A stretch of 64,000 nt of DNA. It comes from Mixia osmundae IAM 14324. Its lineage: Eukaryota; Basidiomycota; Mixiomycetes; Mixiales; Mixiaceae. The notes beneath the pieces were generated by a model, which saw only the letters and a program-made list of their open reading frames with translations, searched no databases and was not told the DNA's origin. The position numbers and the translations under genes were made by a program. The stretch is taken from the NCBI RefSeq assembly GCF_000708205.1, contig NW_014575550.1, forward strand, positions 124,001 to 188,000, in the 5' to 3' direction. Below, piece by piece: positions 6,575 to 53,529 of this stretch. Each line of letters opens with the position of its first letter. The stretch's first letter is position 1.

Positions 6575-7449
6575 TCATGTTGTCGCTGCACTGACGCTTT
6601 GCCGTCTCGTCTTGATGATCTGTCGGCATTCCTCGAGTATCTCATCTACGCCCTGTACTCCACTGATCTGCCATTCACGCAGGATAGGCTCCCATTCTCC
6701 CCACAAGCCAGCACGAGCATTGGTAGCTCGCAATCTGTCGGGTAGATCAACGATAGGTTGCAAGTGCTTGATCGGATCCAATGCCCTCATCGAGGGACCC
6801 GTGACCACTGCAGGCGGGAATGCGGTGGACAGCGAATCTGTCAGCTGCGCGATCGCCTCGAAGGCTGTGCCAAGTTGCTCGAGCGAGCTATCGAGAGACT
6901 CTGCGCGAGTCTTCATCTGTCTTGCGCGCGTCAGAAACCCCATGCGCGCTGATCGCCGATCTGCATCTTGCCTTCTGTATCAACGTCGAAGCTTCGATGA
7001 GCTCATGATGATGGTTATAGACGAGCGACTGTCGCTCTGCATCAAGCTCGCGGATGTCTGCATCATCGGCTCAGCGCTTGTCGAGTGACGACGCGTGCAT
7101 CCGTACCGACGAGCAAGTCATTCTCTTTCTTGATGAGGTCCGGAAGCGTCTGACTGTTCAGTAGATGTGTGTACAAAGCCCTCGGGTCGAATGCGGAGGA
7201 ATCGACTGCGAGATGGTCGCCTTCTTTGCTCGGTGTTGGTGCATTGAGACCATAATAGTCCCTGAGTAGATTGCGAGCTCTTCGTCTGGGCGTGGTCTGA
7301 TCTGACGTTGTGCCCGCTCGAGGCGTGGACGCGACCGAGCCTGTCGAGCGATGCGACGAGGTCCTCGGCAGCGGTGGGGCCATCGCATGCAAGCTGACCG
7401 CTGAGCCGGTGAGCCTGGTCAAGTCGAAGAAGCGCGCGGCAGTCGACAT
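6575..7449 (-). CDS. VPS51: GARP complex subunit Vps51
   Basis: Vps51 belongs to the GARP tether that captures endosome-derived vesicles at the late Golgi. Exon 1 carries the diagnostic LLRDYYGLN motif followed by FDPRALYTHLL. After a 49-nt GT-AG intron comes IRELDAERQSLVYNHHHELI, the core Vps51 helix. A second intron at 6917-6971 has a GC donor (CAGAAG|GCAAGA) and restores LIQKMKTRAESLD. The 256-residue product is short, as in yeasts, and consists of the Vps51/67 domain plus a modest C-terminal helical part. The first ATG is at 7449. MAPPLPRT at 7383 is a possible alternative start and would widen the very small gap to TAF10. Confidence 0.88.
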
Positions 7450-7473
7450 CGACAGTCGCTCGCTGCCGTCAGG

Positions 7474-8078
7474 ATGAACATCGACCCCTCTCTGCTATCG
7501 TCACGGCCTGGCAATGCTGCGACAGGAGCGAGCACGTCTACAGATGCACCCACGCAAGCCCAACTGAGAGCGGAAGCCACGAGGAACGAACACAACGAGG
7601 ACCTGACCGCGCAAGAAAGGTCCGTCCTGCAGTCAGAGCGCGAGCAGCTCTCCGAGACTGATGGGCTGGGCAGAGATCTAGCTCACTTCCTGACGCTGCT
7701 ATCACAAGACGATGCAAAGCCGCTCATACCGGATGAAGTGACGGATTATTACCTCGCTCGCGCAGGATTCGAGTGCGACGATGTCAGAGTGTACGCAAGC
7801 AGGTACCACCCGACATCCGAGCTGACGATGACGCTTCCTGATCGTGTAGGAAGAGATTGGTAGCGTTGGCCACACAGAAATTTGTAGCCGATATAGCGAC
7901 AGACGCCTACCAGTATGCACGGACGAGGACGCAGGCGACACCGGCTCTCGCTCGAGGCAAGGAAGCAGATGTACCGCGCAAGACAGACAAGAGCAAGACT
8001 GTCTTGACGATCGAAGACCTCAGTGCTGCCCTAGCAGAATACGGTGTCAACGCAACTAGAGCGCCTTATTATCTCTGA
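7474..8078 (+). CDS. TAF10: Transcription factor TFIID / SAGA subunit Taf10
   Basis: Taf10 is a histone-fold protein shared by TFIID and SAGA. Two exons (7474-7790, 7850-8078) encode 181 residues. The intron has a GTACGC donor and a GTGTAG acceptor. Joined, they give the family core: LIPDEVTDYYLARAGF, then KRLVALATQKFVADIA, then TVLTIEDLSAALAEYG ending in YYL. The N-terminal 85 residues are low-complexity and hydrophilic, as in other fungi. The start codon lies only 24 bp from the VPS51 start on the other strand. This makes a head-to-head pair whose 5' UTRs must overlap if both starts are right. Confidence 0.93.
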
Positions 8079-8206
8079 TCATGCTACTTCTCAGCGTTCA
8101 AGCCAAGTCATTGTGTACCCCGTGTTGTAATGATGCGTTGACAACAATAGTCTACTGCATGCGTGTGCTATGCGTTGCCAGCTACTGATTCCCCATTAGG
8201 TGTTGC

Positions 8207-9059
8207 TTACACTTGATGCATGTCTGTGTGCTCGTGTTCCGAGGCGGAATGCTTCTCCATACTGTTCGGGCTGTCGACACCGCTCGAAGCGACTTGTGCT
8301 GCCTTGCGCGACTTGAAGAGCGTCGCGTTGCCGACGGCCACTTCGTTGTGGCCAGATCGGAGCATGTGGCGCGCAGCCAGAGAGACGAGGAGCCAAGACA
8401 AGCTCATGCAGGCAAAGTTGACCCATCTGCAAAGAATCAAAGGTCAGCTTATGACTCTGAAGAGCTGACGACGGAAGAAGCGTACCCTACGATCATGGCT
8501 ACGCGAGGTGGCCAATTGGAGATGTAGGCTAGATTCTGGCCCGATGCGGCGACGAGTCGCGCTACGACAGCAGGTGAAGCGAGCGGTGTCGTAATCGTTG
8601 CACTCTTTGTGCTCGTGACGACCGTCATTGCGATGTTGGCGCCGAGCAAGAAGAGCGTCGCCAGGCCAAAGAGGAACTCCTTGATCATGATCGACCGCTT
8701 CGTCTCGATGGGATGGATCCGGAGAATCGTCATGAGGACGTAGACGGTGCACAGCAGAGACGCAAATCCAGAAGCTGCCGTAAGCGATCCATTGGTGTTG
8801 AGAATCTCCTGCGCGTGCAGTACTCCTTCGGGGATTTGCTCGGCCGTCATCTTCTTCTTATCGTTGAGGAACACCAGTCCATATGAGGAGATACCGACGA
8901 CGACGATGGACGTTGCGCTCGTCTGCTCGATCGCCACATTGCTCAGCTTTGCTAAGGAGATTCCAAGGCAGCGAGACGTACAGCTTGGAAAGCGAGAGCT
9001 CGTGGGATATGGAGGTAGGCATGCTGATCGGTCGGCTTGCCAAAGTGTAGCTTGACCAT
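8207..9059 (-). CDS. Conserved four-helix membrane protein, unknown function
   Basis: Three exons, split by two 59-nt GT-AG introns, encode 244 residues. The protein starts MVKLHFGKPTDQ. It has four hydrophobic segments: SIVVVGISSYGLVFL, FASLLCTVYVLMTILRI, FLFGLATLFLLGANIAMTVV and WVNFACMSLSWLLVSLAA. A polar C-terminal tail ends HTDMHQV. The layout resembles small fungal MARVEL-like or tetraspan proteins, but I see no diagnostic motif and give no function. Intron removal gives a whole number of codons. A TATATAA element lies about 37 bp upstream of the ATG. Confidence 0.75.
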
Positions 9060-9381
9060 CTTGTCTCCTTGCTCTGGGTACTGCAGCTCGTGCGCTTATA
9101 TAGCCCCTCTCGTGCGGTCTTGGCAAGGAGTTGCAAGACAGCGAATGACCTCTTGAGCGAGTCTGAACAGGCGATGCTACCCCAGAGAAGATCCCTTGGC
9201 CTTTTTCTGCCACAAGACTGGCCAAGGTTCCCCAGACTGCGCCCGGAATTCGGGTTCTATCAATTCGCGAACCATGCTATGATCGAGCGAATTTGTCGAG
9301 TCGCGCGAGATCTGATCTAGCGCAGAGACATTCCCGTGCAGCCCATTAGCACGGCAAGTGTTCTTCCGTGGCTGTTGCTTG
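9060..9381. other. Intergenic region, 322 bp
   Basis: This lies between the start of the membrane-protein gene and the stop of the PTPA gene, both on the minus strand. It contains the TATA element at 9096-9102. Nothing else convincing is visible. Confidence 0.4.
9096..9102 (-). promoter_or_regulatory. TATA-box-like element
   Basis: The minus strand reads TATATAA about 37 bp upstream of the ATG at 9059. Position and sequence suit a core promoter for the membrane-protein gene. The call rests on sequence match alone. Confidence 0.45.
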
Positions 9382-10498
9382 CTATTTGGAAGGAGAGGAC
9401 AGCCAGGGCAAAAGTTGGCCAAAGTAGAAATGCTGCACGACGGGCGCCTTTTCGAGCACTTCGGCTGACCACATCTTGATCATACCGCTATTGACTTTGC
9501 TCCAACTGGCGACCGTCGTAGCGATCGAATAGAGCAGAGGTGAATGCTCACGGAATGCAGCTCTCTTTAGATCTGTGACGTGTGCTATGCACCGAAAGAA
9601 GATGAACGAGTCACACGCTTTCCGTACCACGATGGGCTGCAGTATCTCCGAAGGCGTGTGTTCAGGATGATCTGCAGACGGACAAAAGTCAAATGTATGC
9701 AGCTGCGAATAGCTACGATGACGCGCCTATGAGCTGGGAAGAGCCGAAGAGATAGGCCAAATGGAAGTGATCGTCGAGTCCCCAAGCGCCCTTGCTACCT
9801 GCAGGCTCAAGATTGTACTTCTTCTGGAGCGTCTGACAGATTGCAAGGTATTTCACAAAAAGCACAAAGACGGTATCGCGTTCGTCTGCAGGCTCGAGCA
9901 GGCGCAAGAGATGGAGTATGGTCAGGTAGGCCAAAAAGGACAGCTCGTGTCCTGTGCCAAAGTCCAGCCGAGACGCCGAGCCGAATGAGCCTTCGAAGTG
10001 ATGCAATAGCTCGGGCAATGCAGTGTGATACTCTGCAGGCATCGCATCGACGTGAAGCTCTTTGCCTCGCTATTGCAGATATAGACAATGAGCATATTAG
10101 CAGCTCGATGTAGCATTGCACCGACCTCATGCAGACGCGCAGACCACTTGCGAAAGGCGGTATTGCCGAATCGCTGTGGACCTGTATCGAGTGGCATTTC
10201 ATCTGCCCAGGTCGCTATCATGTCCAAGATCGCCGCGATCCTTTGCACAGTCTGCACGGCGTCTTAGCTATAGCTTGCAAGCGAAGTGGACCACAGCGCT
10301 GACCGGACTGAGAGAGGTAGTTTTGGGCAGTGGCTGACGGTAGACTGAAGCGTTGAGTCGTAGCATCATCAGGTATATACGTTTGTAAGCAGGCGAGCGT
10401 TTCCATGCCGCGATGTCTGAATCGGTGTGAATCTTCCGCACTGGTTCGCTGGGCTCAGAGGGTACATCAAGTCTCGGAAGGTCTGGTAAGCGTTCCAT
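9382..10498 (-). CDS. RRD2: PP2A phosphatase activator PTPA (peptidyl-prolyl isomerase, Rrd1/Rrd2 type)
   Basis: PTPA loads metal into, and so activates, protein phosphatase 2A catalytic subunits. Four exons encode 317 residues. Family blocks in order are RFGNTAFRKW, RLDFGTGHELSF, WGLDDHFHLAYLFGSSQLI, FREHSPLL, WSKVNSGMIKMW and VVQHFYFGQLL. The introns are 52, 56 and 55 nt. The third (9672-9726) has a GC donor, ATAG|GCGCGT. A GT alternative a few bases downstream would run into a stop, while the GC site gives SSQLIDHPEH. Rrd1 and Rrd2 cannot be told apart here. A second PP2A regulator, TAP42, lies 10 kb away. Confidence 0.92.
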
Positions 10499-10609
10499 CT
10501 CGCGTGCTCATCGACAGCACAAAGCGGCGCGCGTGTAGTGCGAAGTATATAAGCAGCTGCCCCAGACGGGCCCAGACGCGCGACGCCTTCACGGGGCCGG
10601 AACCTGAAT

Positions 10610-12054
10610 CTATGCTGCTTGCAATGGCCTGAAGCGTACAACAACTTCCTGTACGCCCTTGAAGTCATTCTTGAGTCTACGTGTGAGCTCCACCTCGAGC
10701 TGGTAGGCCTCGACGACTGAAAGCCCTTCTGGCACCAGCAGGAGCAGATCAACGAGCTTGAATCCGCCAGCCTTGTACAGTCTGGTCTCGCAGACGCACA
10801 GGATGGGCAGATCGGCCTGCCGATGGATAGCTGCACGTTCTTGGTGGTGTGCGTGATCGTGATCGTGTTGCTGCACAGAGGTAGCGGGTGAATCGAAACG
10901 ATGCTGGTCATCTGCACATTGTACGGGCGCATGACGGTCTGCTTCTACCGCAGACGGTGGCACTTGTGGGGAGTCTGCTGCTGCACGGACAACGGTGGGA
11001 TTGCGCTGGGCGAGCAGCCAGGTTTCGAGCTTGGTCGTAAAGCTTGGATCGTCAGACCGATCGACGAGCTCTTTGAGTGCTGCGAGGCCAACTCCAGCGC
11101 CTTGTCGTAAGATCAGTGCCGACACGAGCAGACCACCCAGTGGATCTAACAGCGGATAGCCCAAGGCAGATCCGCCCTGTCTCGGCTTTGAGTATAGATA
11201 TGCATAGCGGCGCGAATACGTACAATGGCAACGAGAGCGACACCGCTCGTGTATGCGTCCACGCGATGGTGGATCGCATTCGCCATGAGCACATTGGACC
11301 TCTCCTGTATCGCTACTTTTGCCGTGGCCCGGTAGACCCATTCTTTGATACCGAGCGAGGCAGCAGCGAACCACATGGCATGAGGGTTCAGCAGAGAATC
11401 GCTCTGGTGGTGTGCATGTGAGTGACCAAACTCTAGCACGCTGGGCAGGAGGAAGCGACCCCAATCTGCCAGTGCAGCCTGATCTGATGCTTCGAGCGCG
11501 CAGACGAGCAAATGCCAAGAATGTGATCCGATGGCAAGTGCACCGCCGATGAGCAAGATGGAGATGCTCAGACTGCCTATAGATTCGAATTTGCCCATGC
11601 CGAAAGGGTACAGTCTCGAGGGCGGTCGACGGGAGATCCGCCAGGACGCGAGGACGACAAAGTCAGCAAGGAGATCAGAAAGGGAGTGGGCAGCATCAGC
11701 GATGAGCGCGGCGCTGTTGGTGAGATATCCGCCTACGCCCTTTGCGAGGACGAGACTGACATTGCTCGCCAAGCCAATGAGCGTGATGCGCGAGCCTGCA
11801 TCCCCTTTGCCTTTGACTGCGGCCAGCAGCGCTTCCGCCGTTTCTTCCTGGTGCCCCTCGTGCGCATGACCGGCATGCCATCGCCGCTGAGACGGTACGA
11901 GCTGCCTCGAGTCGATCTGTCGGCGTACACGAGCTGAAGAGCGCGAGATTAAGACGGCTGAGCGGGTCACAGAGGGACTGTAATGTCGCTGGCTGAGGCG
12001 CACAGCTGTCCATGGGAGCGACTCGATCGCTCTGCAGGCTCGACAGCTCAGCAT
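10610..12054 (-). CDS. MMT1: Cation diffusion facilitator, mitochondrial iron transporter type (Mmt1/2-like)
   Basis: This is a CDF-family proton-coupled metal exporter. Mmt1/Mmt2 move iron out of mitochondria. Two exons around a 47-nt intron encode 465 residues. The N-terminus is basic and hydroxylated (about 60 residues), like a mitochondrial presequence, followed by a His-rich patch (HAGHAHEGHQEE). The CDF signature is clear: helix 2 has IADAAHSLSDLLADF, and helix 5 has ANAIHHRVDAYTS. These are the H/D pairs that form the transport site. A second His cluster (HDHDHAHHQE) sits in the C-terminal domain. The start at 12054 is 183 bp from the POLI start on the other strand. Confidence 0.88.
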
Positions 12055-14171: not shown

Positions 14172-14199
14172 CAGATTATAATATGTCGCGTTGTTGTTG

Positions 14200-15463
14200 C
14201 TACGCTTTTGCAGAGATCTGTCCGGCATCACTAGGATGTGCAGCGGCAGACTGGGCGGCCAGTCTTGCCCTGAGAAACGCTTTGGAGGCTCGTACGTCAG
14301 GATCCTGCACGATGGCACCATCCGCACTCTTGTCTGACGTCTCCTCCTCCAAGGAGCGCCAGAGAGCATAGAGCGATGTCATCTCCTGTATCGCTTCCAG
14401 CAGTATCGGCATTTGCACATTGAGCGATGCCAGGAACGTAACGGGCTCAGTTCCTCTTCTGTGTGTGGACGCGTTAGGGGCAGGGCTGCCAAGAGCAGGA
14501 GAGCTCGTGACAGCAGGCGAGCCAGCGAGTGACTTGAACGATTCCACGTGTACGGCTGATCGCATCAAGTCGTCACGAGCTGTCAGATTTCTGATGGACT
14601 CGGGCGGTGTGATCGTGAGACAGAGGTATATAGCTGCGACTGCGATGATGTACGGCGGATAGAGTAGACACAGGTCAGATCGGTAAGTGTCATTGATGAT
14701 GTACCACGCCATCTGAAAATGCGATTCTTCGAGATCAATGCAGTCTGCTTCCTTCTCTTCGCTCTCGCTTGGATCTCTTCCGCAAAGCTTGACGAGACTC
14801 TGGTATGGATGGTATACGATCAGATGAAATTCCAGCTCTTCTAGCAAGTCTGTTCGAATCGTCAGCTTGCTGGTGTAGCTCGAGCACAACGACGTGCAGA
14901 ATTCCATTTCGGCCACTTTGGTCGTGTCGGATGAGAAAGGTGGCATGCCGCACTCGGTACAAGTCGCTCTGCCCTCGGCAACGATTGCTTTGATGTGAAC
15001 GGGCGTTTCTTCTGCCTTTGTGGCGACATACAAACACGTCGCAGCCACAAGACAAGGGTCCGTCTCTGCGGTCTCCAGATGTCAGCCTGCAATGCTAGCT
15101 GTACCGTTCGAGACGAGCCTAGATAGCTATTCTTGAGATAGAATCGTCTGAGAAAGACAATGGCGGTCGCAGTCACCTGCTGACGCAAATGAAGCCGTTT
15201 CGCGAGCTTTTGACAGACTGTCTGGCTTGTCTGAGCTCATGACAGTGAAAGAAGGGGAGCAAGGCGAACAGTTGGCGAGCCAGATGGCGAAAAAGCCCAG
15301 TTCTCGAGGAGTAGCATGGCGTAAGTCCTCCTGACGTGAGGCCGAGAGGAGGTGTCGGTCGACGAGCCAGTAGTTCCTTGGCAGTCGAGTCGAGATGAGT
15401 GCGTGATCCAAAGCGTGTGACGAGAGCTCACGCGTGTGTCGAGAGCCAGAAGTTGGCCGCCAT
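14200..15463 (-). CDS. SSN8: Cyclin C, Mediator kinase-module cyclin (Ssn8)
   Basis: Cyclin C partners Cdk8 in the Mediator kinase module. Five exons encode 351 residues starting MAANFWLSTHANYWL, the family N-terminus. The cyclin box includes LRQQVTATAIVFLRRFYLKN, then AATCLYVATKAEETPVHIK and EFHLIVYHPY. Introns 3 and 4 have GC donors: 15066-15118 (CTAG|GCTCGT), giving SYLETDPCLV, and 14850-14897 (TTCT|GCACGT), giving AEMEFYLLEEL. Both junctions rebuild strongly conserved cyclin C text. The C-terminal 90 residues are Ser/Ala-rich. It shares a 118-bp divergent promoter with the acetyltransferase gene. Confidence 0.93.
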
Positions 15464-15581: not shown

Positions 15582-18778
<3,197 letters not shown>

Positions 18779-20718: not shown

Positions 20719-20858
20719 CTTTGCAAGCTTGTCTCGACAGCGCGCGAGTGTTGCGCGAAATTTCAGAGAGAGAGAGAAATGTGCCCCGACCGAGAACGGA
20801 GCTGACGCGGGAAAGAACAGGATGGCCACCACCCCAGCTAAGGCATGCATTGACGTGA

Positions 20859-22266
20859 TCAGCCACGATTATGACGATTGCCTTCGCCGCGTCTGTGGTC
20901 ATCAGTGTAGAGATCCCACTCGCGTTGTTCGCGGACATGACGCTCATTCTCAGCATAGCCCGCAGCATTGTCGCCTTCCTCTATCCTCTGCGTCCTCTCG
21001 CTCGTCGTCTCTCGTTCTGCAGACGCTTGGCCTCCGCCGGAGATGATCCTGCCCTCTGCTTGCTCAATCTCGAGGAACTCGTCAATCGACATTGTCGGCA
21101 ACCGGTGGTCAGGCTGAAAGACTTCGGCCTGCAGACGAAGACGCGTTTCAAGAGCTGACTGAGGACCGCCTTGCTTCGTCGATGGCAAGATAGTGAATGG
21201 CCGAAGCACCTGATTGCTGACATCAGTACATCGATGTCATGTACAGAGAAACATCGACTTGCCTTGCCACTTGAGGACAAGACGGGACCGGTCGTCCAGT
21301 CTGACCGGCGATGGCCGAGATCGTCCAGTCGCCAAGTCGAGGCATCATCACGCCTCGAATGCGATGCTCTCGCATCCTGTCGTCCGTCGCGGGTACTGGA
21401 TGGCAGGTCGACCATGGCAGGCTGAGACGCGAGCAGTTCTGATTCTAGTGCGATGGAGGCCAGCTCGCCATGTACCTTGATGCAGTGTAGAGTCAACAAG
21501 TTGATCATGGTCGATCGCAGCACATCGTCGTCTTCTTGTGCGTCGTCGCCAGATGCTGAGAAACCGTACCGGTCTTCATCGTCATCTTGTGCATCAGCGA
21601 GGGTTTTGGAAGACGAAGCTACAGGTGCCTGACTGCCTCGAAGTGACAGGCGTGCTTTCGACCTGCGCTCGGCGAGCTCGGCCAGCACAGCTGCCACTTG
21701 TCGTTCCATCCTGTACTGCGCAAGCTTTGCATTCCGCTTTGCTGCGGGATCTGCACCGTGGCGGGCAGAAGGTCCAACGAGCACATCTCGCTTGTCCTCT
21801 GCAATGATCTGGTAGCGCTCTAAGCAGTCGAGAAATTCGAGCGCGTAAGCCTTTGCTTGGCTGAGATGTGTTTGTCGCTCGATGGAGGAAGGCGACTTGA
21901 GCAGAGGGGTCAGTCGAGCTTGGTAGGCAGGCAGGAGGAGCACTCTGAGCGTGGCAGTCGACAGATCCTCGAGCGTTTCGTTAGGCGACAGCACGCCCAG
22001 ATGATCAACAAGAGAACGACACAGCCGCAGATCAGCCAGGACGCTCAGGAGCTTGGCCTGCCCATCCATCAGATCGCCCTCCAAGCGGACCTCAGGGCAT
22101 GCGTACCTGTGCAGCTTGTCAAAACGAATCTGCGACCATGACGCGTTGTGCTGACCTGAACGGGCGGTGATGTTGGCGACGGTGCTTCGAGCACGGCATC
22201 GGAGCGTAGCAGTGTCCTACCAAGCAACTTTGCCAAACTGATCTCATCCTGCGCATCGTCCGACAT
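20859..22266 (-). CDS. TAP42: PP2A-associated protein Tap42 / alpha4
   Basis: Tap42 binds and stabilises PP2A-type catalytic subunits downstream of TORC1. Three exons encode 437 residues. The N-terminal helical repeat domain runs from [11 protein letters not shown] through [19 protein letters not shown] to [13 protein letters not shown]. The C-terminal family motif is [10 protein letters not shown], followed later by [15 protein letters not shown]. The second intron (21210-21262) has a GC donor (GGCAAG|GCAAGT) and a 53-nt length; it places the conserved LRPFTIL right after SSGK. The first intron is 41 nt. It is divergent from GID4 across 341 bp. Confidence 0.92.
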
Positions 22267-24199: not shown

Positions 24200-25487
24200 C
24201 TACAGCTTTGCCGCGGGTGGCTCAGGCATGACGCCTTCAACTCGCTTTAGGCTCTTTCGGGTGATATCCCGCAGAGAAGGAAATCCACCGACGGTCATGA
24301 GAATGTCGAGGTCGGCCAGAAGGCATTTGGTGACGTGCATACAGCCTTCGTAACCTCCTGCGGACATGCCAAAGATCCACAGTCTGCCAAAGAGAACAGC
24401 TTTGGCGCCTAGAGCGATAGCCTTGAAGACGTCTGCGCCCGTTCGTACGCCGGAATCGTAGATGATGGTCAGCTTGTCGCCTACGATGGGCGCTATCTCT
24501 GCTAGGGCATCCAGACTGCCTAGCGCACCATCGACTTGGCGACCTGCGTGGTTGCTCACGACGATACCGTCACAGCCGTATTCGACTGCTTTGAGGGCAT
24601 CCTCGGTGGACTGAATGCCTTTTAGCAAGAAAGGTTTGTCACCGCTGATCTTCTTCCATTCCTGCGGACGAAACTGAGGATGAGTGTCAGGTCGATGATA
24701 GCAGAAGCGGGCTTGCCTTGATGAGTGCAGGGAGCTCCTTCCAGGAATGTGCTTTCCCGTGCCATACTGCTTTGTCAATCCACCTCGAAGGATCTTTTTC
24801 TAGCTCTTTGCCATACTTTTTCATGAAGGCAGGGTCGGACGTTCCCATCTGATTGCCCGTCTTGCCGTAGTAGAAGCTGTAGTTGGAAACATCAATGTCC
24901 GTGGGTCGCCAGCCGAGCTGCCAAGTGTCAACTGTGAGTATACATGCATCGTAGCCGCTCTTGTGTGCTCGCGTGAGAAGCGAAGTCGTGATCTCGGGAT
25001 CATGAGGCCAGTAGAGTTGGAAGAAGCGCGGTCCGTTGCCGTTCGCTTTTGCCACATCTTCAATCGAACGACTTGCTGCCGTCGATAAGCAGTAGCCCAT
25101 GCCTAGCTCACCCGCCACACGTGCAGGGATGAGCTCGGCATCGGGATGATAGTTTGAGTTGATGCCAATGGGCGCAAAGAGCAGAGGGTTGGGCAGCTTG
25201 TGACCAAAGAGGTCAACGGACAGATCGCGCTCGTTCGTGTCGACGAGCATGCGGGGGATGATTTTCCAATTGAAGAAAGCCTGTCGGTTGGCTTGGTCTG
25301 TCCAGCCTTCGCCTGCGTTGGAGACAGCATAGAGGTAACCTTTGTCCGTCAACTTCTCCTTTGTTGCCGCTTGGAGTTTCGTGGGCTGCGCGCTGACGAT
25401 ACTCGTCTCGCCCCGGGTACCTTTGAGGAACTGCTCGCGCTGGTAGAGCGAGTAGTGCTTCTCGATCGACTTGCCATCTGGATCCAT
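24200..25487 (-). CDS. FMN-dependent alpha-hydroxy-acid dehydrogenase (lactate 2-monooxygenase-like)
   Basis: This is a flavin enzyme that oxidises L-2-hydroxy acids. Two exons encode 410 residues with no cytochrome b5 domain, unlike Cyb2. Family text includes PLLFAPIGINSNYHPD, FQLYWPHDPEIT, ILTVDTWQLGWRP, GIVVSNHAGRQVDGA (with the catalytic His), IIYDSGVRTGADVFKAIALG and AVLFGRLWIFG. The 55-nt intron at 24662-24716 has a GC donor (CAAG|GCAAGC) and restores ALIKEWKKISGDKPFLLKG. The substrate (lactate or another hydroxy acid) is not resolved. The start is the first in-frame ATG. It is divergent from RPL32. Confidence 0.88.
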
Positions 25488-25694: not shown

Positions 25695-26185
25695 ATGGCA
25701 ATCGCACCGCCCATCGTGAAGAAGCGAACGCACAAGTTCAAGAGGCATCAGTCCGACCGATATGCTGGCCTGAAGGAGAACTGGAGAAAGCCAAAGGGTA
25801 TCGATAACAGGCAAGTTGTCGATGTGCCACCATGGAGAGCTCGACTCTCGCTCTCTCTCTGTGGCACTGTCAGATAGGCAGGCCTCTACTGACGTTATAG
25901 CATCATCGCAGAGTCCGAAGAAGATTCAAGGGACAGACCCCGATGCCCAAGATTGGCTATGGCAGCAACAAGGCGACAAAGCACATGATGCCCAATCGGC
26001 TCTACAAGATGGTCGTCTCCAACGTCTCCGAGCTCAACCTGCTCTTGATGCACAACAAGACCTACGCAGCAGAGATTGCGCACAACATCTCGTCTAAGAA
26101 CCGCATCACTCTGCTAGAGAGGGCAAAGGCGCTCGGCATCAAGGTCACCAACGCTTCCGCTCGTCTGCGCAAGGAAGAAGCATAG
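25695..26185 (+). CDS. RPL32: 60S ribosomal protein eL32
   Basis: This is a cytosolic large-subunit ribosomal protein. Two exons (25695-25810, 25912-26185) encode 129 residues: [51 protein letters not shown] and [16 protein letters not shown]. The intron (25811-25911, 101 nt) has a perfect GCAAGT donor after AACAG. It rebuilds the invariant [12 protein letters not shown], so this is one of the firmest GC-AG introns in the window. The length matches the family. Confidence 0.95.
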
Positions 26186-26306: not shown

Positions 26307-27366
26307 TCACAGTTTGGGCTTGAGGGCTTGCTCGACTGAGAAAGCATCCTCATGCACGCTGGCACCTTCTGATAGACTGAAAGGAGCCTTGTCGTCCTCA
26401 CTGGGCACGTATGACGGATCCAATTCTCCTTCTTCCTCGTACTCCTCGACATAGCTGAACTGCCAGTCTCTCTGCGACACCGTCAGCTTCGCTCTGCTCG
26501 TTCGCTGCGACGGTCTTGAGACGGACCTCCTCTCCAGAGGTCAGGAAGCTACAATCGCCGTTGCGTTCGCATGTCCATGTGCCCAAGACATCTTGCCGGC
26601 CCAAGCCAAAATACTCGGCATCCTCTCGCGTCCTGCGATCTTGGGGCTCAAGTGTGCGTCTGTACGCACTCAGTGAGCATGTGCCCACATGTATCCTCGC
26701 ATCTCTCTCGCCAATCAATGCTCGACCGAGTGCGATGTTGACAGCAGCATGTGCGACGATCAGTATCGTCCTAGGCGCGTAAATATCTTCGTCGTACTGT
26801 CGAACGATGAGGCGCAGTATCTCCTTTGCACGCTCGTGAAGCGCTTCTTCGGACTCGCCTTTGCGTGACGGATACAAAAGTGACTGGTGCGCGTCGGGAT
26901 TGATGTGCGTGAAGGAGTGTGACAGATGTGCAGCTGTACCTGGACGGGGATGGACGCCCTTTGAGGCAGCGCGGATGGGCAGATACCATTCTCTGCACGA
27001 CGAGACATCAATCAGAGCGACCTCGACAGACCGTTTTGGCTCACGATAGACCGTGCTCGACGAGTATCTCTCCTCCCGTCACGCCAATGATATATTCTGC
27101 CGTTTGCAAGCACCTGCACTTCCACGTCTCACGCGGTGCAGGGAATCGTGCCGAAGAAGTACGAGCCTCGTATATGGCGAGCAAAGAAGACGGTCGACTT
27201 TGAGACCCGACACGCTCAAGTGTTGTCCCAGCTCAATAGCTTGATCACGTCCGTGTGAAGTCAAAGGAGGATCGTGCGGCGTGCCCGATGAGCTGAACGC
27301 ATTGCCCCATGCGGAGCCTGCCATTCGGAAGCCATGACGGGCTATCAGGATTGTCTCGACGGGCAT
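26307..27366 (-). CDS. Histidine phosphatase (phosphoglycerate mutase-like), possibly TFIIIC tau55 type
   Basis: This is a branch-1 histidine phosphatase fold. Four exons encode 304 residues. It opens VETILIARHGFRMAG (catalytic RHG), then DPPLTSHGRDQAIELGQHL, LLCSPYTRCLQTAEYI, ILIVAHAAVNIALGRALIG (second catalytic His), and a C-terminal acidic tail (EEYEEEGELDPSYVPSEDD). SPYTRCLQTA plus the acidic tail resemble fungal Tfc7/UBASH3-like proteins more than glycolytic mutase, but the substrate is unknown. The first intron (27114-27166) has a GC donor, ACGAG|GCTCGT. The third is only 40 nt. It is divergent from the OM14-like gene across 118 bp. Confidence 0.82.
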
Positions 27367-27484: not shown

Positions 27485-28993
27485 ATGAGGCAAGCCTTCC
27501 CTTCTGTGTGGCCGAACAAGGCTGACATCCGCTGGGCTACATAGTAGCTACGCAGCCGTAGCAGCACACGATGCGCCCGCGCCGGAGGATCAGCCCACAC
27601 CGGCTCCAGAGCCACAAATTATCGTAGCCAATGATGCTGCAGTACACTCTCTGGCCGATGTCGAGAATCCGACGCCGGCAGAAGCGGCAGCCATGTCGAG
27701 CACCGAACACGACCCGTCGACCGAATCGCTGGCTGCATCTTCAGACCTAAAACCCACCGCTGCTCCCTTCAAACCGTCTTCATCGCCCAAGCCGACAGAA
27801 TCTCGTCATCCCGCAGTCAATGAGACGAAGCAGAACGCTCAGCAGACTTCAAAGGACGTCAAGTCCGCTGCGAGCAAGGTGGAGAACAAGTCGAAGCAAG
27901 AGGGCGCAAAGGCCAAGGCGGCCGTTTCCGATTCTGCGGACAAGGCGAATAAGAAAGCCAGTGAGGTTCGCAAAGAGGCCAATGGCAAGGTGCAAGAGGT
28001 CAAGAAGGATGCCGAGCCCTATGTGAACAAGGCAAAGGAGGAGGCAGAGGCTGGAAAGCAGAAGGCCTCTCAACTCGCCGAGAACACTAAGCAAGGTGCC
28101 TCTGACCTCGCAAAGCAGGCAGAAAAGAAAGCCTCCCAGATGCAGAGAGATGGTTTGTGGAGCCCGTTTGGTGGATGTGGAGCACTGCTGATCAGATGTG
28201 ACCAGCCGAGCCTTACATCGAAAAGGGCAAAGAGAACATCGAGGCGGGCAAACAGAAAGCAGCTGAATTGGCAAGCTCAGCACAGCAGAACGCGTCGGAC
28301 TATGCCGCCTCGGCGCAGAAGACCGCATCTGATTATGCTGCTACTGCCCAGCAAAAATCATCGGAGCTGGCTAGCTCGGCACAGAAGAATGCGCAAGAAT
28401 TGTCCGATGCTGCCAGTCAGAAAGCTCAGCAGCTCAAGAAAGATGCTCAGCCGTATATTGCTGATGCAGAGGAGAAGATCGAGGCTGGCAAACAAAAAGC
28501 AAGCGAGCTCGCTGCTTCGGCTCAGCAAAACGCTTCTGAGCTCGCTACATCCGCTTCTGCTCGTGCGCAAGAGATTGCGGACCAGATCCAGGCCGCAACG
28601 AGCAATGCTTCTGCTTCTGCTCAGCAAGGTCTCTCGGACGGCAAACGCAAGCTGTCTGAGCTTGGCTCTGAGATCAACGAATCGGTCGACTCTGCGAGGA
28701 AGCGCACGGCCAGAGATCTGAGAGACCCGGAGAAAGTGCGATCGTACCTTGGCTTCATCAATGTCGGCGTCATAGCTGCTGTTGCAGCGCTGGCTTTCCG
28801 ACATTGGGAGCAACCAAGATGGGACAGAAGGATAGTCACCGCCATCTCTGCAAGTCTCATAGGCTTTTTTGGCCTGCAAACGTAAGTCGCCTCAGATTGT
28901 ATCGCGCCCTCGACTGAGGGTGTCTGCAGGCCTTACGGGCAAGATCAGTTCCAACGAGCGAGACGTGATGTGGACGCCAAAAGACGACAATAA
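27485..28993 (+). CDS. OM14-like repeat protein with C-terminal membrane hairpin
   Basis: Four exons encode 449 residues. Exon 1 is only five bases (ATGAG, 27485-27489). A 58-nt GC-AG intron (27490-27547, GCAAGC donor) then gives MSYAAVAAHDAPAPE, the N-terminus typical of fungal OM14-type mitochondrial outer-membrane proteins. The middle consists of Ala/Lys/Gln-rich amphipathic helix in three copies marked by KDAEPY or KDAQPY and EAGKQKA. The end has two hydrophobic segments (FINVGVIAAVAALAF and VTAISASLIGFFGL) and a short tail. Family knowledge suggests an outer mitochondrial membrane protein; the repeats also recall LEA or perilipin helices. Function is inferred only. Confidence 0.72.
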
Positions 28994-35724: not shown

Positions 35725-36532
35725 TCAGATAAACTTGTTGTCCTCTAGATACTTGACTAGCTGCTTCACCGCGTCTTCTACAGAGGTATCGTTCGTCTTG
35801 ATGTGCACCTCTGGCTTGTCGGGCGCTTCGTAGGGCGCCGTGATGCCCGTAAACTCTGCAAGTCGACAGGAGAGTCATCAGCACGACGCGCTGCTGATGC
35901 AATCAGGCCGACTCGCCTTTGATCTCGCCTGCTCGCGCTTTCTTGTAGAGTCCCTTGGGATCGCGTCTCTCTACTTCTTCGAGCGTCGCATCGACAAAGA
36001 CTTCGATGAACGCCAGCTTGGACTCTTCGTGAATCTTGCGCGCAGTCTCTCTGTCGGCCTTGTAGGGCGAGATGAAAGCTGTGATGGCGAGTGTAGACGA
36101 AGAAGCGAAAAGCTTGGACACCTGCGCAAGACGCGTGTGAGCCCTACGGGTGAGCGTGGAAGGCTGTGCTCGCCTCGCCAATACGTCGTATGTTCTCGTT
36201 TCGATCTTGTACGGAGAAGCCCAGGTCCTTGTTGAGGCCGAACCGGATGTTGTCGCCGTCTAACCGGAAAGCTCTCTTGCCAAGCTGAAGCAGAGCAGCC
36301 TCGAGGGCGACGCCAATGGTCGACTTGCCAGACGCTGACCAGAACCCGACGTGAGCCCATGTTAGCTCCTTTGACTGACAGGCGAGCGTACCTGACAGGC
36401 CCGTGAGCCATATCGTTGCACCTCTTTGGCCTGTCAATTTGATCCTGTCCTCTTCAGAGACCGTGGACGCGCTGTTTCGCAGCGATGAGTCAAGCCGGGT
36501 GGCGTGGCAGATGACGTGAGACTGACTGCCAT
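35725..36532 (-). CDS. MET14: Adenylylsulfate (APS) kinase Met14
   Basis: Met14 phosphorylates APS to PAPS in sulfate assimilation. Five exons encode 197 residues. The P-loop is GLSASGKST, split by an intron. Other motifs are [65 protein letters not shown] and [16 protein letters not shown]. Two introns have GC donors: 36122-36173 (GCGAG|GCGAGC) and 35856-35916 (AAAG|GCGAGT). Both junctions rebuild invariant text, so they are strong cases. The first intron (44 nt) places MAVSLT before the P-loop domain; this start is less certain than the rest. Confidence 0.93.
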
Positions 36533-41549: not shown

Positions 41550-41591
41550 AAGGGGTTTTTCATGCAAATGTTGTTGTCATGCATACTTGTC

Positions 41592-42625: not shown

Positions 42626-43537
42626 ATGCGCTCTCTTCTCGCTGTGTGCACCTTCCTCGCTCTCGGCCTCGTGCGATCAACTCCAACCATGATATCAGAA
42701 AGGGGCGACGTGACCGGCGAGCTATCCAAGCGATACGAGACTTACACCAACTATGCTTTGTCCATGATCAGCAGTGTATGATACATATGCAGCTTGGTAT
42801 CCGATCTACTGACACTTTGAGCAGCGCGGAGTTCGCTTTCGCCTGGCGGATGGCTCATGGGGTCGGCCGAGCCCGCTATTCAGCAAGCTCATCCAAAAGT
42901 TCACTGTCATCAAGAAGAAAGACTTCTTCGACGTGTCTGCAAACTACGAGTACACTGTCGACTTTGCTATCCTCTCTGGCGTTTCTGCATCCTTCCAGTC
43001 CACGTCACTCGTTCACAAGAGCGAGCAAGTCTCTCACATCATTCTCGACTGGGCCACTCGCATTCAGTTCAGTGGAGCAGCTGGACAGGAGCGAGATGCG
43101 ATGAGTCCGTTCGAACAGTGCTGTACGGTTGTGTACAATTACGAGCAAGTCTACGCCTCGCTTTGGGGGTTGTCATCGGTCAGCTGATTCTCGAACGCAC
43201 AGCATTCCGGTTTCATTCGATGGCAAGCAGATGTGTCAGTCGCTTATTCGAGATATCGCTCACAGATGGCTGATGAGGAAGCCAGGGATCCTCTCCTCAC
43301 CCTACAAGCCAAAGGTGTCAGTCGATTTGGTGTGCGGACGCGACCATGCTCTTGCCTTTCCCTTCACGGCGCAGTGCGAGGACTTCGTGAAAGGTCTAGC
43401 CAGCGTGGTCCCGAGCAGCTTGTTCACTGACGTACGGACCAGATTACGAGAGCAAATTCGCATACACAGACATCTTGATCGATCATCATGTCGATCTGCT
43501 CGATGGCAACCTCAAGCCTATACCGTCCAGAGGCTGA
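42626..43537 (+). CDS. Secreted Cys-Cys protein, single domain, exon structure partly unresolved
   Basis: Exon 1 encodes MRSLLAVCTFLALGLVRS, a signal peptide, and about 32 more residues. A GT-AG intron then leads to a beta-rich exon with ANYEYTVDFAILSG and SPFEQCCTVVYNY. A GC-AG intron (43145-43202, GCAAGT donor) would continue as DIPVSFDGKQMCQSL. The CC pair followed by a Cys resembles the domain in 30355-33087. The last exon probably ends KFAYTDILIDHHVDLL...IPSRG at 43537, which reads well as protein, but the junction into that frame is not settled. Treat the 3' half as tentative. Confidence 0.5.
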
Positions 43538-45660: not shown

Positions 45661-47120
45661 CTATTGCTTGAGCTGTCTTGGCTTCTCCCATGGGTATGCG
45701 GCTGCGCAGAGCGTCAAAACACACTCTTGTGAGCCGGTAAGAGTCACTCACGGTTGCCGAAATGACCGTAGCAGGCTGTTGGGCCATACTTGACAGTTTG
45801 CAGGCCGAGCTCTTTGACGATCACACCCGGTCGGAGATCAAAGTTGGCCTGGATGATCTTGACAATCTCGGCATCGCTCTTCTTGCCGGTACCGTATGTG
45901 TCGACAAAGATGGAGAGCGGCTCAGCGACGCCAATGGCGTAAGAGAGTTGGACGAGAACACGTTTGGCTAGACCGGCCGCGATGACTGACTTGGCGATCC
46001 AACGACCCGCGTATGCGCCTGATCGATCTACCTTTGACCAATCCTTTCCGGAGAATGCACCACCACCTGTTGCACGGTGCGTGAGTGATGTTCGCAATTT
46101 GTACAGAGAGCGCAGCTTACCGTGAGCACCCCAGCCGCCGTAGGAATCGACGATGATCTTACGGCCTGTAAGACCGGCATCACCTTGAGGACCGCCAATG
46201 ACGAAACGGCCAGATGGCTGGATGTGGTAGACGGTCTTGCTGTCAAGCATGTTGGCAGGAATGACGGCCTGGATGACCTTCTTGTACACCTCGGATCGCA
46301 GGTCTTCGGTCGAAATCTCCTCTGCGTGTTGTGTGGAGATGACGATGGTGTCTACACGCTTTGGCGTCACGGAACCGTCCTTTTCCTTTTGATATTCGAT
46401 TGTGACTTGGGTCTTTGTGTCTGGTCGAAGCCACTTGCAAGTGCCAGTTCGTCGCTCTTCTGCCAGCTTACGGTTGAGTGCGTGCGCGAAAGCGAGCGTC
46501 ATGGGCATGAGATCAGGCGTCTCGTCGGTCGCGTAGCCGAACATGATACCCTGATCACCTGCACCGTGGTTCTCGAGGTCACCGTGGTCGAGACCTTGTG
46601 CAATGTCGGGCGACTGCTGCTCGATGGCGACGAGGACGTTGCAAGTCTTGTAGTCGAAGCCCTTTTCAGAGTCGTCATAGCCAATGTTCTTGATCGTATC
46701 GCGGATGATCTTTTGGTAGTCGAGCGGTGACTTTGTCGTCTGCTCGCTCCTTCATCAGCTCTGCGCCTCGTGCAGATTCGCAAGAGAGCGTACAATCTCG
46801 CCAAAGACCATGATCATGCCAGTCTTGCAGGCAGTCTCGCAAGCGACCTTTGACCAAGGATCATCTTTCAGGCAAGCATCCAGAATTGCATCCGACACTT
46901 GATCGCAAATTTTGTCAGGGTGTCCCTCGCCGACCTGCGCCATTCCAGAGGGTCAGCACATAGCTTGTCAGAGCTGGTCTCGAGTGAGCTTGCCGACTCG
47001 GAGGTGAAGAGGAATCTGTACAAGCAACCGTTAGCTCGGGCGCACGTGCGAGTGCATATGCTAAAAGACTTGCCTGCCTTCGCCGAGCGGCTCTGTTGAG
47101 CGTGTCTGGTTAAGTGACAT
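45661..47120 (-). CDS. SAM1: S-adenosylmethionine synthetase
   Basis: This enzyme makes AdoMet from methionine and ATP. Six exons encode 394 residues. Motifs are [73 protein letters not shown] and the C-terminal YGHFGNPAYPWEKP. The first two introns both have GC donors: 47016-47073 (GCAG|GCAAGT) and 46935-46993 (GTCG|GCAAGC). Between them is a 22-nt exon (46994-47015) encoding FLFTSES. The fourth intron (46067-46120) is 54 nt and stop-free, so it can be misread as coding. A TATATA lies 31 bp upstream of the ATG. Confidence 0.95.
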
Positions 47121-49336: not shown

Positions 49337-50231
49337 ATGCAGTCGCAGGCCAAAGGTAAGGCGTGAGCAGCTCTCACATCATCAGCCACACTCTTGCGCA
49401 CATCCCCGGACCCCGGAAAAGCTAGGCAGAAGCGCAAAAGGGCAAGATAGCTGACTCACGAGCTTGTCCATCTTGTACAGTGCCGCGGTCGTTCGTACTG
49501 CTTGCAGAGTTGGAGAAGGGCGAGAAAGGGATTGGAGATGGCTCATGCTCGTACGGACTGGGCGATGGCGAGGGGATGGACATGAAGAAGTGGCAGGGTA
49601 CGATCATTGGTCCATCACATGTCAGTCCCCTTGCCGCTATTCTGCCCCTCTGTCCAGCTCTGCTTCGAAACATGCCACTGCTTGCCGTGTCAGCTCTGCC
49701 TCCCAGTAGCGCAGCAGCGTTGGCTTGCCATCGCGCTTCAAGCCCGATGGCCAGGCTATCTGCTCAGGCCATCCGCATACCTTGCGTACAAGGCATCACA
49801 CGACTTCACCGGAGAGGTCTAGAGAGGCCAGAGGCTGATCATACAAGCAGAGCGTACACGAGAACAGGATATACAATCTCCTGCTCATCTGTAACGATGA
49901 CTATCCGGACGCTCCGCCAGAGGTGAGATTCACGACGCGCATCAACCTGCCTTGCGTCAGCCCGACAAACGGCAAGGTTAGCTCTATTGTGCTCGACTAT
50001 CACAAGGATAACTAAAGCGGATCGTTCTTGACAGGTCGAGCCACGACTGCTCGCTTGTCTTGCGCAATGGCGACGAGGCTTTTCAATCGAGACTGTTCTC
50101 GTCGAATTGAGGAGGCAAGTTGGAAGCTCGTTCATCAGATGCAGTCTGGCTGAAAGCGGCGCTGCGGCAGAGAGATGGCATCACAGAATAACAGAAAGCT
50201 ACCCCAGCCTCCAGAAGGCTCGTCGTTCTAG
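49337..50231 (+). CDS. MMS2: Ubiquitin-conjugating enzyme variant Mms2 (UEV)
   Basis: Mms2 lacks a catalytic Cys and pairs with Ubc13 to build K63-linked ubiquitin chains in error-free post-replication repair. Five exons encode 141 residues: [71 protein letters not shown] and the C-terminus [22 protein letters not shown]. The last intron (50115-50170) has a GC donor (GGAG|GCAAGT) and is needed to give that near-invariant tail. The first two introns (125 and 230 nt) are much longer than the rest in the window. Exon 1 is 19 coding bases. Confidence 0.95.
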
Positions 50232-50573
50232 ACAGCGCGCACTCGTCGCGCACCTGTCAGGAAAGAGCGAACATGATCGAGGCAAACGACCAGAGCTCTG
50301 CCCGTGCATTCTGTAGACTTGTAGGGTGACATCCTGCTGCCACAATTGAACTGTTTCTCTCGTTGTCTTGCGTGAGTCTGCTCGGCGGTCACGGGCTTAC
50401 CATCATCCTTCGCCTTTGCTGCAACGCGCCGCGCAACGCAGACGATCGCGACGCCCGAGAATGATGACAATGGCTTGCGAGCGCTTTGGCTTTGTCAAGC
50501 GATAGCTGTACTCCCTTGCAGTCTGCTCACGCCAGCTTCAGCAGCACGAGGGCTGTAGAAGGACAGCACAAAG
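50232..50573. other. Intergenic region, 342 bp
   Basis: This lies between MMS2 and KEX2. If KEX2 has an extra 5' exon, it would be here. Nothing else is evident. Confidence 0.35.
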
Positions 50574-53529
50574 ATGGCGTTGACCAATTGCTCCTGCTCG
50601 TGCGGCGTCGCTACAGGCGACCAATCACAGCTTGCAGACCTTCCAGGTCGACCAACACGGCGAGAGGACCGCACTCGAGCGCCCTCGCTGTCCAGCAGGA
50701 AGGCGATCAGCTGGCTGTGCCTGGGACTCTTGTCTATTTCCGGCTTAGGTGGTGCTCAAGCCAACAGCCTGCTGGCCCGCCCGAACGAGCACGGGCGCTC
50801 ACTGCCGGCGTCTGAACACCTCGAGAGGTACAGTCATCATGGCCAAGTGAGACAGCCAGCCAGGCGAGAGTATGACACGCATCATTACTATGTCGTCGAA
50901 CTCGATGCCGCTCACCAACTGGCGTGGCATCCCGATGGACCCGCTCAAATAGCTTCATCACTAGGGGCAGAGCTAGTCGAGCAGCTTGGCGAGCTGCAAG
51001 ATCACTACCTTGTTCGAAGTGCGAAGCCGCTGTCCCGTCGCGATAATGACGAACACGATGCTGTGCTTGCTCGCTACGCTGCGCTAAAAGAACGCTCAGA
51101 TCTGATCAAGCGCTCCGACGATCACGGGGCTGCTATACTGTCGCTAGACAAACAGGTCCTGCGTCACCGTGTGAAGCGCTTCATGGAACTCGGTGATCTG
51201 TCCAATGAAGTTTTGCCGCGCTCGCCACAATACCCCGGTGCAAAGCAAGACAACAAGCCTGTGCCCAAGTATCTACGCATGCTCGCGGATCGCTTCTCCA
51301 TTCCAGATCCCTTATGGCCGAAGCAATGGCACCTCGCCAATGACGACATGCGCGAGAACAGCATCAATGTACCGCCAGTCTGGGAGCAAGGTATCAACGG
51401 GTCTAACATCGTCGTCGCTATCGTCGATGATGGCCTTGACAGCGAGTTCTTCCTTACGTCAGCAGTACCCACTTGGCTGATATGGTCTACCGCTCGCAGT
51501 GCATAGCATGGACTTGGAAGATGCCTTTGCAGCCAAAGGATCGTGGGACTACAATGACCACACCAATTTGCCGGAACCGCGTCTATCTGACGATCAGCAT
51601 GGTACACGGTGCGCAGGAGAGATTGCTGCTTCCAAGAACGACGTCTGCGGTCTCGGGGTGGCATATGGAGCAAAAGTGGCGGGCATACGGATCCTGTCTG
51701 GCCCAATCTCGGATGCCGATGAAGCTGCTGCATTGAATCATGGCTATCAGGTCAACGATATCTACTCGTGCTCCTGGGGGCCGCCAGACGATGGAAGATC
51801 GATGGAAGCGCCCAGCAGGCTGATCTACAAAGCCATGCTCAATGGCATCCAGAAGGGTCGGGATGGCAAAGGAAGCGTCTTTGTTTTTGCAAGCGGTAAC
51901 GGCGGTGCCCTGGACGATCAGTGCAATTTCGATGGTTACACCAATTCAATCTTCTCCATCACCGTTGGCGCAATCGATCGCAAGGGTCATCATCCCTTTT
52001 ATTCGGAAGCTTGCGCTGCCAACATGGTCGTTACCTACTCGTCCGGCTCAGGCGATAATATACATACGACGGACGTCGGGCGTAACAAGTGCACTGATCA
52101 CCATGGCGGAACCAGTGCTGCAGCTCCGATCGCCGCCGGCATCTTCGCTCTCGTCCTACAAGTCCGACCCGATCTGACCTGGCGTGATATGCAGTACCTC
52201 TGCGTACAGACCGCAGTGCCCGTCAATACGGACGAAGACGACTGGCAGACCACGCAAGCTGGTCGACCGTACAATCATCGGTACGGCTATGGCAAACTCG
52301 ATGCATATGCCATCGTCGAAGCCGCAAAGAAGCACAAGCTCGTCAAGCCACAGGCATACTGGTCTTCGCCCGACCGGGAGAGCGCACTGTCACTGTCCAA
52401 AGCCGGCGTATCGACAGAGATCGATGTAACGCGGGAGATCCTCAAGAATGCCAACTTTGGCCAGCTCGAGCATGTCACTGTCATTGTCAATATCACCCAT
52501 TCGAAGCGAGGTGACGTCGAAGTGATATTGGAGAGTCCACATGGCACGCAAAGCATTCTAGCCCGGACGAGACGCTACGACTCTGCTAGCACTGGCTTCC
52601 CGAGATGGAAGTTCATGAGCGTCAAGCATTGGTCAGTCGCTTGTCTCAAGGTGTATATACCCACTAAGCCTATGTGCGACAGGGGCGAGAGTCCGCTCGG
52701 CAAGTGGAAGCTGACCGTGAAGGATCAAGGCGACTCGCAGCAAAATGGCACATTCTATGCCTGGCAGCTGGATCTCTGGGGCGAGAGCGAAGATGCCTCA
52801 CTCGCGAGGCCATTCAAGATGGCAGACGATGCTCAAGTCATACTACCCAAGCCTGGCTCGCTTGCAGATCTCAACATGACCGACCCAGACGCACAGGACA
52901 AATCCAATGATGACTTACTTGAGCTTCAGCCCGGGCAGACCGATGCTACCAAAACGATACCTAAACCGACGGAGCATCTTCCGTCGAATCACTCCCAAGC
53001 GAACCTCGATAAGCCTGCACAGACGGAGAAGCCAATCAGCGACATAGAGGAACCTCATGCTGACGACAAGCCGCCTAGCACTGAGTACCTGGACGATGAC
53101 AGCGAAGACGATGGCTATCTCGGTAGCATGTCGTCCATGCTGGCCAACCAGCGCGGCTTCTTCGCAACAGTTGCAGGCGTCGTTCTCACTGCAGGCTGTG
53201 TCGGTGCTTTCCTCGTCATACGACGCAATCGATTACGAAGACGAGAAGCGATCAACCGACGTGGTTACTTCTTCGAATCTGTGCCTGCCGCAGACGACGA
53301 GATGGGTCTCAAGCGAGGCGCTGGCGATGCTTCTCTTGGCGGTAGAACGCGCGATCTCTACGACGCTTTCCAAGTGGGCGACTCGGACAGCGATGACGAA
53401 GAAGGGTTCCGTCAGTCAGAGTCATCCAGATTAGTTGGACGGAGTCTCGATCGGCAGCGACAATCGCTCGGTGAGCCACCTGCTCGACAGTCTGCACAGC
53501 TCGCAAGTGCAGATTCGAAAGCTGTATAG
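50574..53529 (+). CDS. KEX2: Kexin, Golgi subtilisin-like proprotein convertase
   Basis: Kexin cleaves secretory precursors after KR/RR in the late Golgi. Three exons encode 948 residues. A hydrophobic segment (AISWLCLGLLSISGLGGAQA) acts as signal, but it begins about 48 residues after the first ATG, so the true start may be spliced. The propeptide ends at HRVKR. Catalytic residues are Asp in VAIVDDGLD, His in DDQHGTRCAGE, Asn in FASGNGG and Ser in HHGGTSAAAP. A P domain follows, then an acidic Ser/Thr stem, one transmembrane helix (FFATVAGVVLTAGCVGAFLVI) and a cytosolic tail. Intron 51442-51499 has a GC donor (GACA|GCGAGT). Intron 52632-52682 is 51 nt and stop-free. Confidence 0.92.

Follow-up and report, generated by a model that had tools for sequence, protein, structure and literature searches.

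Roughly a sixth of the introns appear to begin with GC in the fungus Mixia osmundae

The GT dinucleotide at the start of introns is among the most constant signals of eukaryotic genes. In fungi, GC-AG introns make up 1.009% on average (PMC7072748). Large shares are reported for the algae Aureococcus anophagefferens (39.6%) and Micromonas pusilla (22.2%), whose genomes contain 66–70% G+C (PMC3033335), and the manually validated GC-AG introns of Globodera rostochiensis exceed the usual 1%, at under half of about 9% (cited in PMC5906903). In the animal Eurytemora affinis, GA and GG donors account for 12% of 297 introns in the presence of a canonical U1 5′ end (PMC5714493). Here we describe the introns of a 64,000-nucleotide stretch of the genome of Mixia osmundae IAM 14324 (contig NW_014575550.1, positions 124,001 to 188,000; the window), a fern-associated fungus of the class Mixiomycetes within the Pucciniomycotina, and of further loci from the same genome. 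An earlier note, made from the letters of this window alone, had listed 18 GC-AG introns among 97 and had suggested a shift in U1 or in donor recognition in this lineage.

M. osmundae shares with the two algae a large proportion of GC donors, yet it is a fungus with only about 55% G+C. It resembles Eurytemora in its canonical U1 5′ end but uses GC instead of GA or GG, and its share is higher than that of Globodera. Compared with ordinary fungal GC-AG introns (PMC7072748), donor type and acceptor are the same, whereas the share is about 15 times higher. In an open-access literature search we found no earlier account of such a share in a fungus and no paper linking Mixia with GC-AG introns; the number could stand in the 2014 description of the Mixia genome or in the tables by species of PMC7072748.

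GC-AG introns in the window and in the sampled loci

Introns were called with a generalized hidden Markov gene model that was self-trained on this genome only, permitted all 16 donor dinucleotides and started from a bias for GT and GC. Early settings yielded some 900 gene fragments and few of the listed introns, which was cured by harsher start penalties. Each intron was scored by the log-likelihood lost on forbidding its donor (delta, in nats), and calls above 4 nats are referred to as strong. The counts exclude loci that had been chosen via a donor-like pattern (L002–L016, L074), duplicated, overlapping or pattern-picked loci (L001, L076, L077, L087, L094, L117), every 400-base locus, and introns that lie at most 15 bases from a locus end or contain N.

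In these unbiased loci the model called 398 GT, 78 GC and two other introns. The strong introns comprise 53 GC and 286 GT, i.e. a GC-AG share of 53/339 or 15.6% (95% confidence interval 11.9–19.9%), which would amount to roughly one GC donor per six introns; two introns with AC and TT donors are not part of the 339. After inspection, by which one GC call and two back-to-back GT calls were removed, 52 of 336 remain. A stricter choice of loci, which also omits those selected for GGNAA (L086–L093) together with the U1C and small nuclear RNA (snRNA) loci, gives 50/297, and the first sample, in which the donor-selected loci were still present, gave 394 GT, 83 GC and three other among 480 introns. 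The high share noticed in the earlier note holds within the window (24/111 by the model; 15/69 strong calls, one of which fails inspection) as well as outside it (35/228 strong calls), and it is indeed far above the fungal mean. On the first sample, alternative settings of the model returned 80/476, 93/518 and 110/581 GC introns while recovering 15, 14 and 14 of the 18 listed ones, respectively.

When the model was trained blind to the donor dinucleotide, GT and GC still came out on top with 251 and 67 calls in the first sample (n=485; next TC with 20) and with 254 and 62 calls in the unbiased loci (n=484; next TC with 21); both first-sample runs, with 480 and 485 introns, still contained L002–L015. 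Moving the weight of GC to any of 14 other dinucleotides gave at most 20475 nats, compared with 20849 for GC (first sample, donor-selected loci included). An initial swap control in which GC was removed is hard to interpret because real introns move to neighbouring dinucleotides, which receive 21–51 calls each. It was replaced by a control that retains GC and adds one control dinucleotide at the same weight. Thereby, the added dinucleotide was used 5–18 times, and GC was unchanged at 73–78. Above 2 nats, each of the 14 control dinucleotides has 0–6 calls, and above 4 nats 0–1 (mean 0.21, maximum 1).

All 18 listed stretches of the window (Table 1) read GC...AG on the gene strand with G at +5, and 15 of them have G at −1, as the earlier note had stated. 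In 17 cases the length is not a multiple of three, and retention would therefore disrupt the frame. The final model reproduces 14 of the 18 exactly (an earlier fit 15), gives two more the same donor and a different acceptor (24674–24716 and 27490–27544), and misses the introns at 15811 and 50115; for both of these, protein comparison favours the GC version. Splicing at 15811 raises the PHD_4 score from 23.0 bits with the GT alternative to 35.4 bits, yields CGRSGHFSC and restores the PHD finger, while the spliced C-terminus of MMS2 aligns without gaps to UBE2V2/Mms2 (E 1.4e-6). For the FMN-dependent dehydrogenase the listed intron scores best (FMN_dh 347.2 bits, against 340.8 with GT only and 338.7 with the acceptor chosen by the model).

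Altogether 17 of the 18 introns have protein support, either from a domain match or alignment spanning the junction or from a deposited protein. Recomputed junctions fall within Pfam matches in PTPA, cyclin C (two), MYST, TAP42, FMN dehydrogenase, RPL32, the phosphatase, MET14 (two), SAM synthetase (one of two), KEX2 and VPS51, and in alignments with relatives of solved structure no gap falls at either junction of SAM synthetase, at the two of APS kinase or at those of eL32 and MMS2. The 22-nucleotide micro-exon between the two SAM synthetase introns encodes RFLFTSES, which adjoins the conserved VGEGHPDK. Moreover, two deposited Mixia proteins match GC splicing for three introns; one of them is identical over 209 amino acids to MET14 with both introns removed.

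We compared the GC-permitting model with a GT-only model in ten genes, eight of which lose at least 14 bits or a whole domain. The score drops from 352.7 to 229.8 bits for PTPA, from 224 to 150.5 for APS kinase, from 74.9 to 41.4 for the phosphatase (His_Phos_1), from 74.5 to 32.8 for VPS51, from 252.7 to 217.5 for MYST (MOZ_SAS) and from 153.3 to 138.4 for the SAM synthetase N-domain; RPL32 (159.5 bits) is split into matches of 37.6 and 93.7 bits, and the cyclin N-domain (45.5 bits) is no longer matched. KEX2 (Peptidase_S8, 163.9 to 158.7 bits) and the FMN dehydrogenase lose only 5–7 bits. Thus, many conserved Mixia genes are broken by a GT-only model. The expectation that standard predictors would break these genes is borne out in this respect, but not for the two deposited proteins, from which three GC introns have already been removed.

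Table 1. GC-AG introns of the window and the micro-exon enclosed by two of them (positions in the window; junctions in residues of the spliced protein)
Feature	Position	Strand	Observation
VPS51 intron	6917..6971	-	exact in model; junction 143 within VPS51_Exo84_N match 83-166
PTPA intron	9672..9726	-	junction 221 within full PTPA match 19-311; GT-only truncates domain
Cyclin C intron	14850..14897	-	junction 106 within Cyclin_N match 21-116
Cyclin C intron	15066..15118	-	junction 50 within Cyclin_N match 21-116
MYST acetyltransferase (PHD finger) intron	15811..15869	+	model chose GT alternative 15831-15889
MYST acetyltransferase intron	17265..17313	+	junction 456 within MOZ_SAS match
TAP42 intron	21210..21262	-	exact in model, delta 7.7; junction 317 within TAP42 match 41-423
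FMN-dependent dehydrogenase intron	24662..24716	-	model: same donor, acceptor 24674; weak preference
RPL32 intron	25811..25911	+	eL32 alignment gapless over junction; GT-only splits gene
Histidine phosphatase intron	27114..27166	-	junction 66.7 within His_Phos_1 match 6-201
OM14-like gene intron	27490..27547	+	model: same donor (27490-27544), delta 7.9; frame and signals only
MET14 (APS kinase) intron	35856..35916	-	junction 166 gapless in PDB alignment
MET14 (APS kinase) intron	36122..36173	-	junction 98 gapless in PDB alignment; GT-only drops residues
L969DRAFT_97240 gene intron	43145..43202	+	deposited protein equals GC-spliced model, residues 1-199; junction 135.7
SAM synthetase intron	46935..46993	-	PDB alignment gapless
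SAM synthetase micro-exon, 22 nt	46994..47015	-	flanked by two GC-AG introns; junctions 68.7 and 76.0
SAM synthetase intron	47016..47073	-	PDB alignment gapless; GT-only garbles RFLFTSES
MMS2 intron	50115..50170	+	missing in final model run
KEX2 intron	51442..51499	+	exact in model, delta 0.9; junction within Peptidase_S8 match; weak preference

The two back-to-back GT introns removed on inspection (22058–22106 and 22107–22155 of the window) have no exon between them. They are the sole such pair in the unbiased loci and represent either one longer intron or a model error. Elsewhere in the genome (loci L010 and L016), contig C17 (152 kb) seems to repeat the right part of contig C8 in collinear order, with four match pairs at a constant offset of 623,140, which points to a large duplication or to assembly redundancy.

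Donor context and the spliceosomal RNAs

In other respects the GC-AG introns resemble the GT introns. The median length is 54 bases for GC and 52 for GT, the branch motif CTNA is found in 0.95 and 0.96, respectively, and the acceptor is YAG in 76/78 and 393/398. The GC donors follow a GCAAGY-like pattern, and position +5 is G in 0.96 of the 78 GC calls. These features suggest ordinary introns of the major (U2-type) spliceosome, of about 50 bases. Such donors, with G at +5, do not match RTATCCTT, the donor motif of minor, U12-type introns. Over all sampled loci, the first model gave branch sites with C 0.94, T 0.99, G 0.74 or C 0.22, and A 0.99, followed by C (0.47) or T (0.37).

The two kinds of donor differ in how well the remaining positions can pair with U1. 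For this comparison we used the introns called by the model that ignores the donor dinucleotide (blind set), because delta-filtered calls are biased toward strong GC flanks; some of the 62 GC calls in this set are probably false, as other dinucleotides get 6–21 calls each. GC donors form on average 4.8 of the seven other pairs and GT donors 3.8 (p 6e-10). The excess is seen in A at −2 (46/62 GC versus 119/254 GT), G at −1 (47/62 versus 142/254), A at +3 (42/62 versus 101/254) and A at +4 (43/62 versus 118/254), while the blind set shows no difference at −3, +5 and +6. The share of GC rises steeply with the number of other pairs. Among the strong calls it is 0/32 at one or two pairs, 2/91 at three, 15/114 at four, 18/74 at five, 15/25 at six and 3/3 at seven, i.e. 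2/123 at three or fewer against 18/28 at six or seven. The latter value does not differ significantly from 53%, the share that equivalence of C and T in introns would give (p 0.26). In the blind set the corresponding shares are 7/105 at three or fewer pairs, 17/112 at four, 21/74 at five and 17/25 at six or seven. Calculated duplex energies with free register have medians of −4.25 kcal/mol for GC and −4.95 kcal/mol for GT donors; replacing the C of the GC donors by T in the calculation shifts their median to −8.95 kcal/mol.

The U1 snRNA genes were located with the pattern ATRCTTRCCT, which occurs at 123 places, 100 of which were listed and 20 examined as regions. Genome searches with RF00003 and RF00488 had given no U1. 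The patterns ATACTTNCCTG, CCTG..GATCANGAAG, ACTTACCTGG and TTNCC..GATCANGAAG produced no U1-like match, and Rfam found no U1 in the first and third of these hit sets. Two inverted U1 copies were found about 24 kb apart on one contig, C4 (L096:101-274 and L097:128-301, minus), and a genome-wide search with the Mixia U1 sequence returns these two places only. The copies are identical across the 174-base match, the next difference lying 17 bases past it. They match RF00003 over its full length (1–166) with 32.8 bits (E 1.9e-6), below the gathering cut-off of 69.5.

Both copies begin with AUACUUACCUU, and all their bases facing donor positions −2 to +6 are canonical, including A7 opposite +2. Both have AUACUUACC at the 5′ end, and the change at the donor-pairing bases of U1 (nucleotides 3–9) for which the earlier note had allowed is not present in either of the copies found. 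A C at +2 therefore opposes A7 as a mismatch. Base 11, which is usually G, is U in Mixia. The body of the RNA is strongly diverged: loop I reads UUUCACGAGA, and AAUACUUCCUA stands at the expected position of the Sm site, which usually resembles AUUUNUG. Energy folding of the first 180 bases gives a four-way junction and a 3′ stem-loop, whereas 150, 165 and 200 bases fold differently. The ACAGAGA of U6 and the branch-pairing segment GUAGUA of U2 are intact. On the strand opposite the main U2 gene, at a distance of about 1.1 kb, there is a second, weaker U2-like match (L077; 44.6 bits, below the cut-off).

U1C and the explanations for C at +2

The gene for U1C, a protein that the earlier note had proposed to inspect, was located via the zf-U1 domain. 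A GC-AG intron with a delta of 5.1 (L116:1631-1691, minus) splits the zinc finger, and with this intron removed the finger is complete (68.6 bits over 1–38 of 38), with C6, C9, H24 and H30 present. Because the intron interrupts the finger, the U1C gene would itself depend on a relaxed check at +2. Residue 22 is His in Mixia; the 112 parsable homologues have Lys (109) or Arg (3) at this place. These come from 120 of 144 homologues listed (proteins of 0.55–1.75 times the query length), eight of which were off-pattern. The Mixia protein was not seen among these 120, and its deposited model may be faulty, differ in length or be missing. In the human U1 small nuclear ribonucleoprotein, Lys22 lies close to the RNA backbone, and U1-C adjusts how tightly mismatched donors are bound, +2C being bound better than +2A (PMC4383343). 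In yeast, YHC1 K22A is severely sick in combination with two U1 variants (PMC3985668).

Within the limits of sequence evidence, the high share of GC-AG introns in Mixia is real. That it might be an annotation artefact, with misplaced GT donors or retained sequence passing for GC introns, has a precedent in a published gene set of the nematode Heterorhabditis, for which re-annotation reduced the GC-AG share from 8.9% to 0.8% (PMC5906903). In our set, 25 of the 78 GC calls are weak (delta at most 4), which is similar to the GT calls (112/398), and one strong GC call fails inspection. On the other hand, control dinucleotides yield one strong call at most, 17 of the 18 listed junctions agree with a conserved or deposited protein, and dispensing with GC has the costs in bits described above for all ten genes; we therefore regard an artefact as very improbable. 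Base composition could also be invoked, as it has been suggested for the algae (PMC3033335), in the sense that a G+C-rich genome converts the T at +2 to C. Introns of Mixia contain somewhat more C (0.288) than T (0.252), G+C reaches 60.7% at third codon positions, and the share of GC at strong donors fits the intron C/T ratio. However, G+C amounts to 55.4% in the window, 54.9% in intergenic sequence and 53.7% in introns, well below the algal values, and the correlation is weak outside the most G+C-rich species (PMC3033335). Composition may set a ceiling but cannot alone relax a constraint, and as a sole cause it is improbable. Hardly credible is an altered U1, main or variant copy, that pairs with the C through a change at a donor-pairing base (e.g. 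A7 to G). The initial failure of the covariance searches and the divergence of the U1 body leave some room for such a molecule, and a very different or unassembled copy would escape our search; both copies found nevertheless carry the canonical 5′ end, and GC donors pair more with canonical U1 elsewhere, as a mismatch requires.

We consider it likely that C at +2 is a tolerated, compensated mismatch that is nearly free where the rest of the U1/donor duplex is strong. In such a scenario the machinery that checks the duplex would be relaxed at +2. With a strong remaining duplex, T and C would be near-equivalent and drift to the intron composition (C/(C+T) 0.53), with which the 18/28 at six or seven pairs are compatible; with a weak one, C would be selected out. 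As the weakest step, the relaxation might be located in a protein adjoining the duplex, e.g. U1C. Several points weigh against this interpretation. All GC counts are model-based and come from sequence only, and the share drops at the strictest cut-offs (60/412 at 2 nats, 35/236 at 6, 11/99 at 8 and 1/33 at 10), partly because the model assigns GC a lower prior. The share is also uneven, with 34/174 in three contiguous stretches and 19/165 in 3-kb loci (p 0.05), and an extra strong GC call in the window, 20838–20881, had to be rejected as a gene fusion, since it links TAP42 with the neighbouring gene and has no G at +5. The gradient is steepened by the delta filter, to the advantage of strongly flanked GC donors, and rises from a higher starting value in the blind set (7/105), and position −3 shows no compensation (26/62 GC versus 96/254 GT). 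Compensation at GC donors is usual elsewhere and is therefore by itself no explanation of a high share. With regard to U1C, selection is described as resting mainly on base pairing, with such U1C residues having no major influence (PMC4383343), and YHC1-K22A alone grows normally and is not synergistic with deletion of mud2 or nam8 (PMC3985668).

It is doubtful, on present grounds, that Mixia lost the check forbidding +2 C specifically through a protein change beside the duplex, with Lys22 to His in U1C as the candidate and T and C selectively equivalent in strong duplexes. A relaxation of late proofreading (U6 partners, Prp8, Prp28) or of Luc7 that admits the C in place of U1C is a reasonable possibility, albeit not one we would favour. 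Position +2 is read again after U1 has left, and as the ACAGAGA of U6 is canonical, a protein would be the likely site; U1C, in contrast, supplies a concrete lineage-specific change. His22 as the relaxed component is a lead only, and of the proposed shift in donor recognition a change in U1C is possible but unproven, whereas a change in the U1 RNA was not borne out by the copies found.

Base pairing and proofreading at +2 could be told apart in a fungus that is small and culturable and combines about 15% GC donors with a canonical U1 5′ end. The gradient from about 2% to 64% GC with duplex strength is one against which models can be fitted. M. osmundae could thus reveal how much strictness cells need in reading the second intron base.

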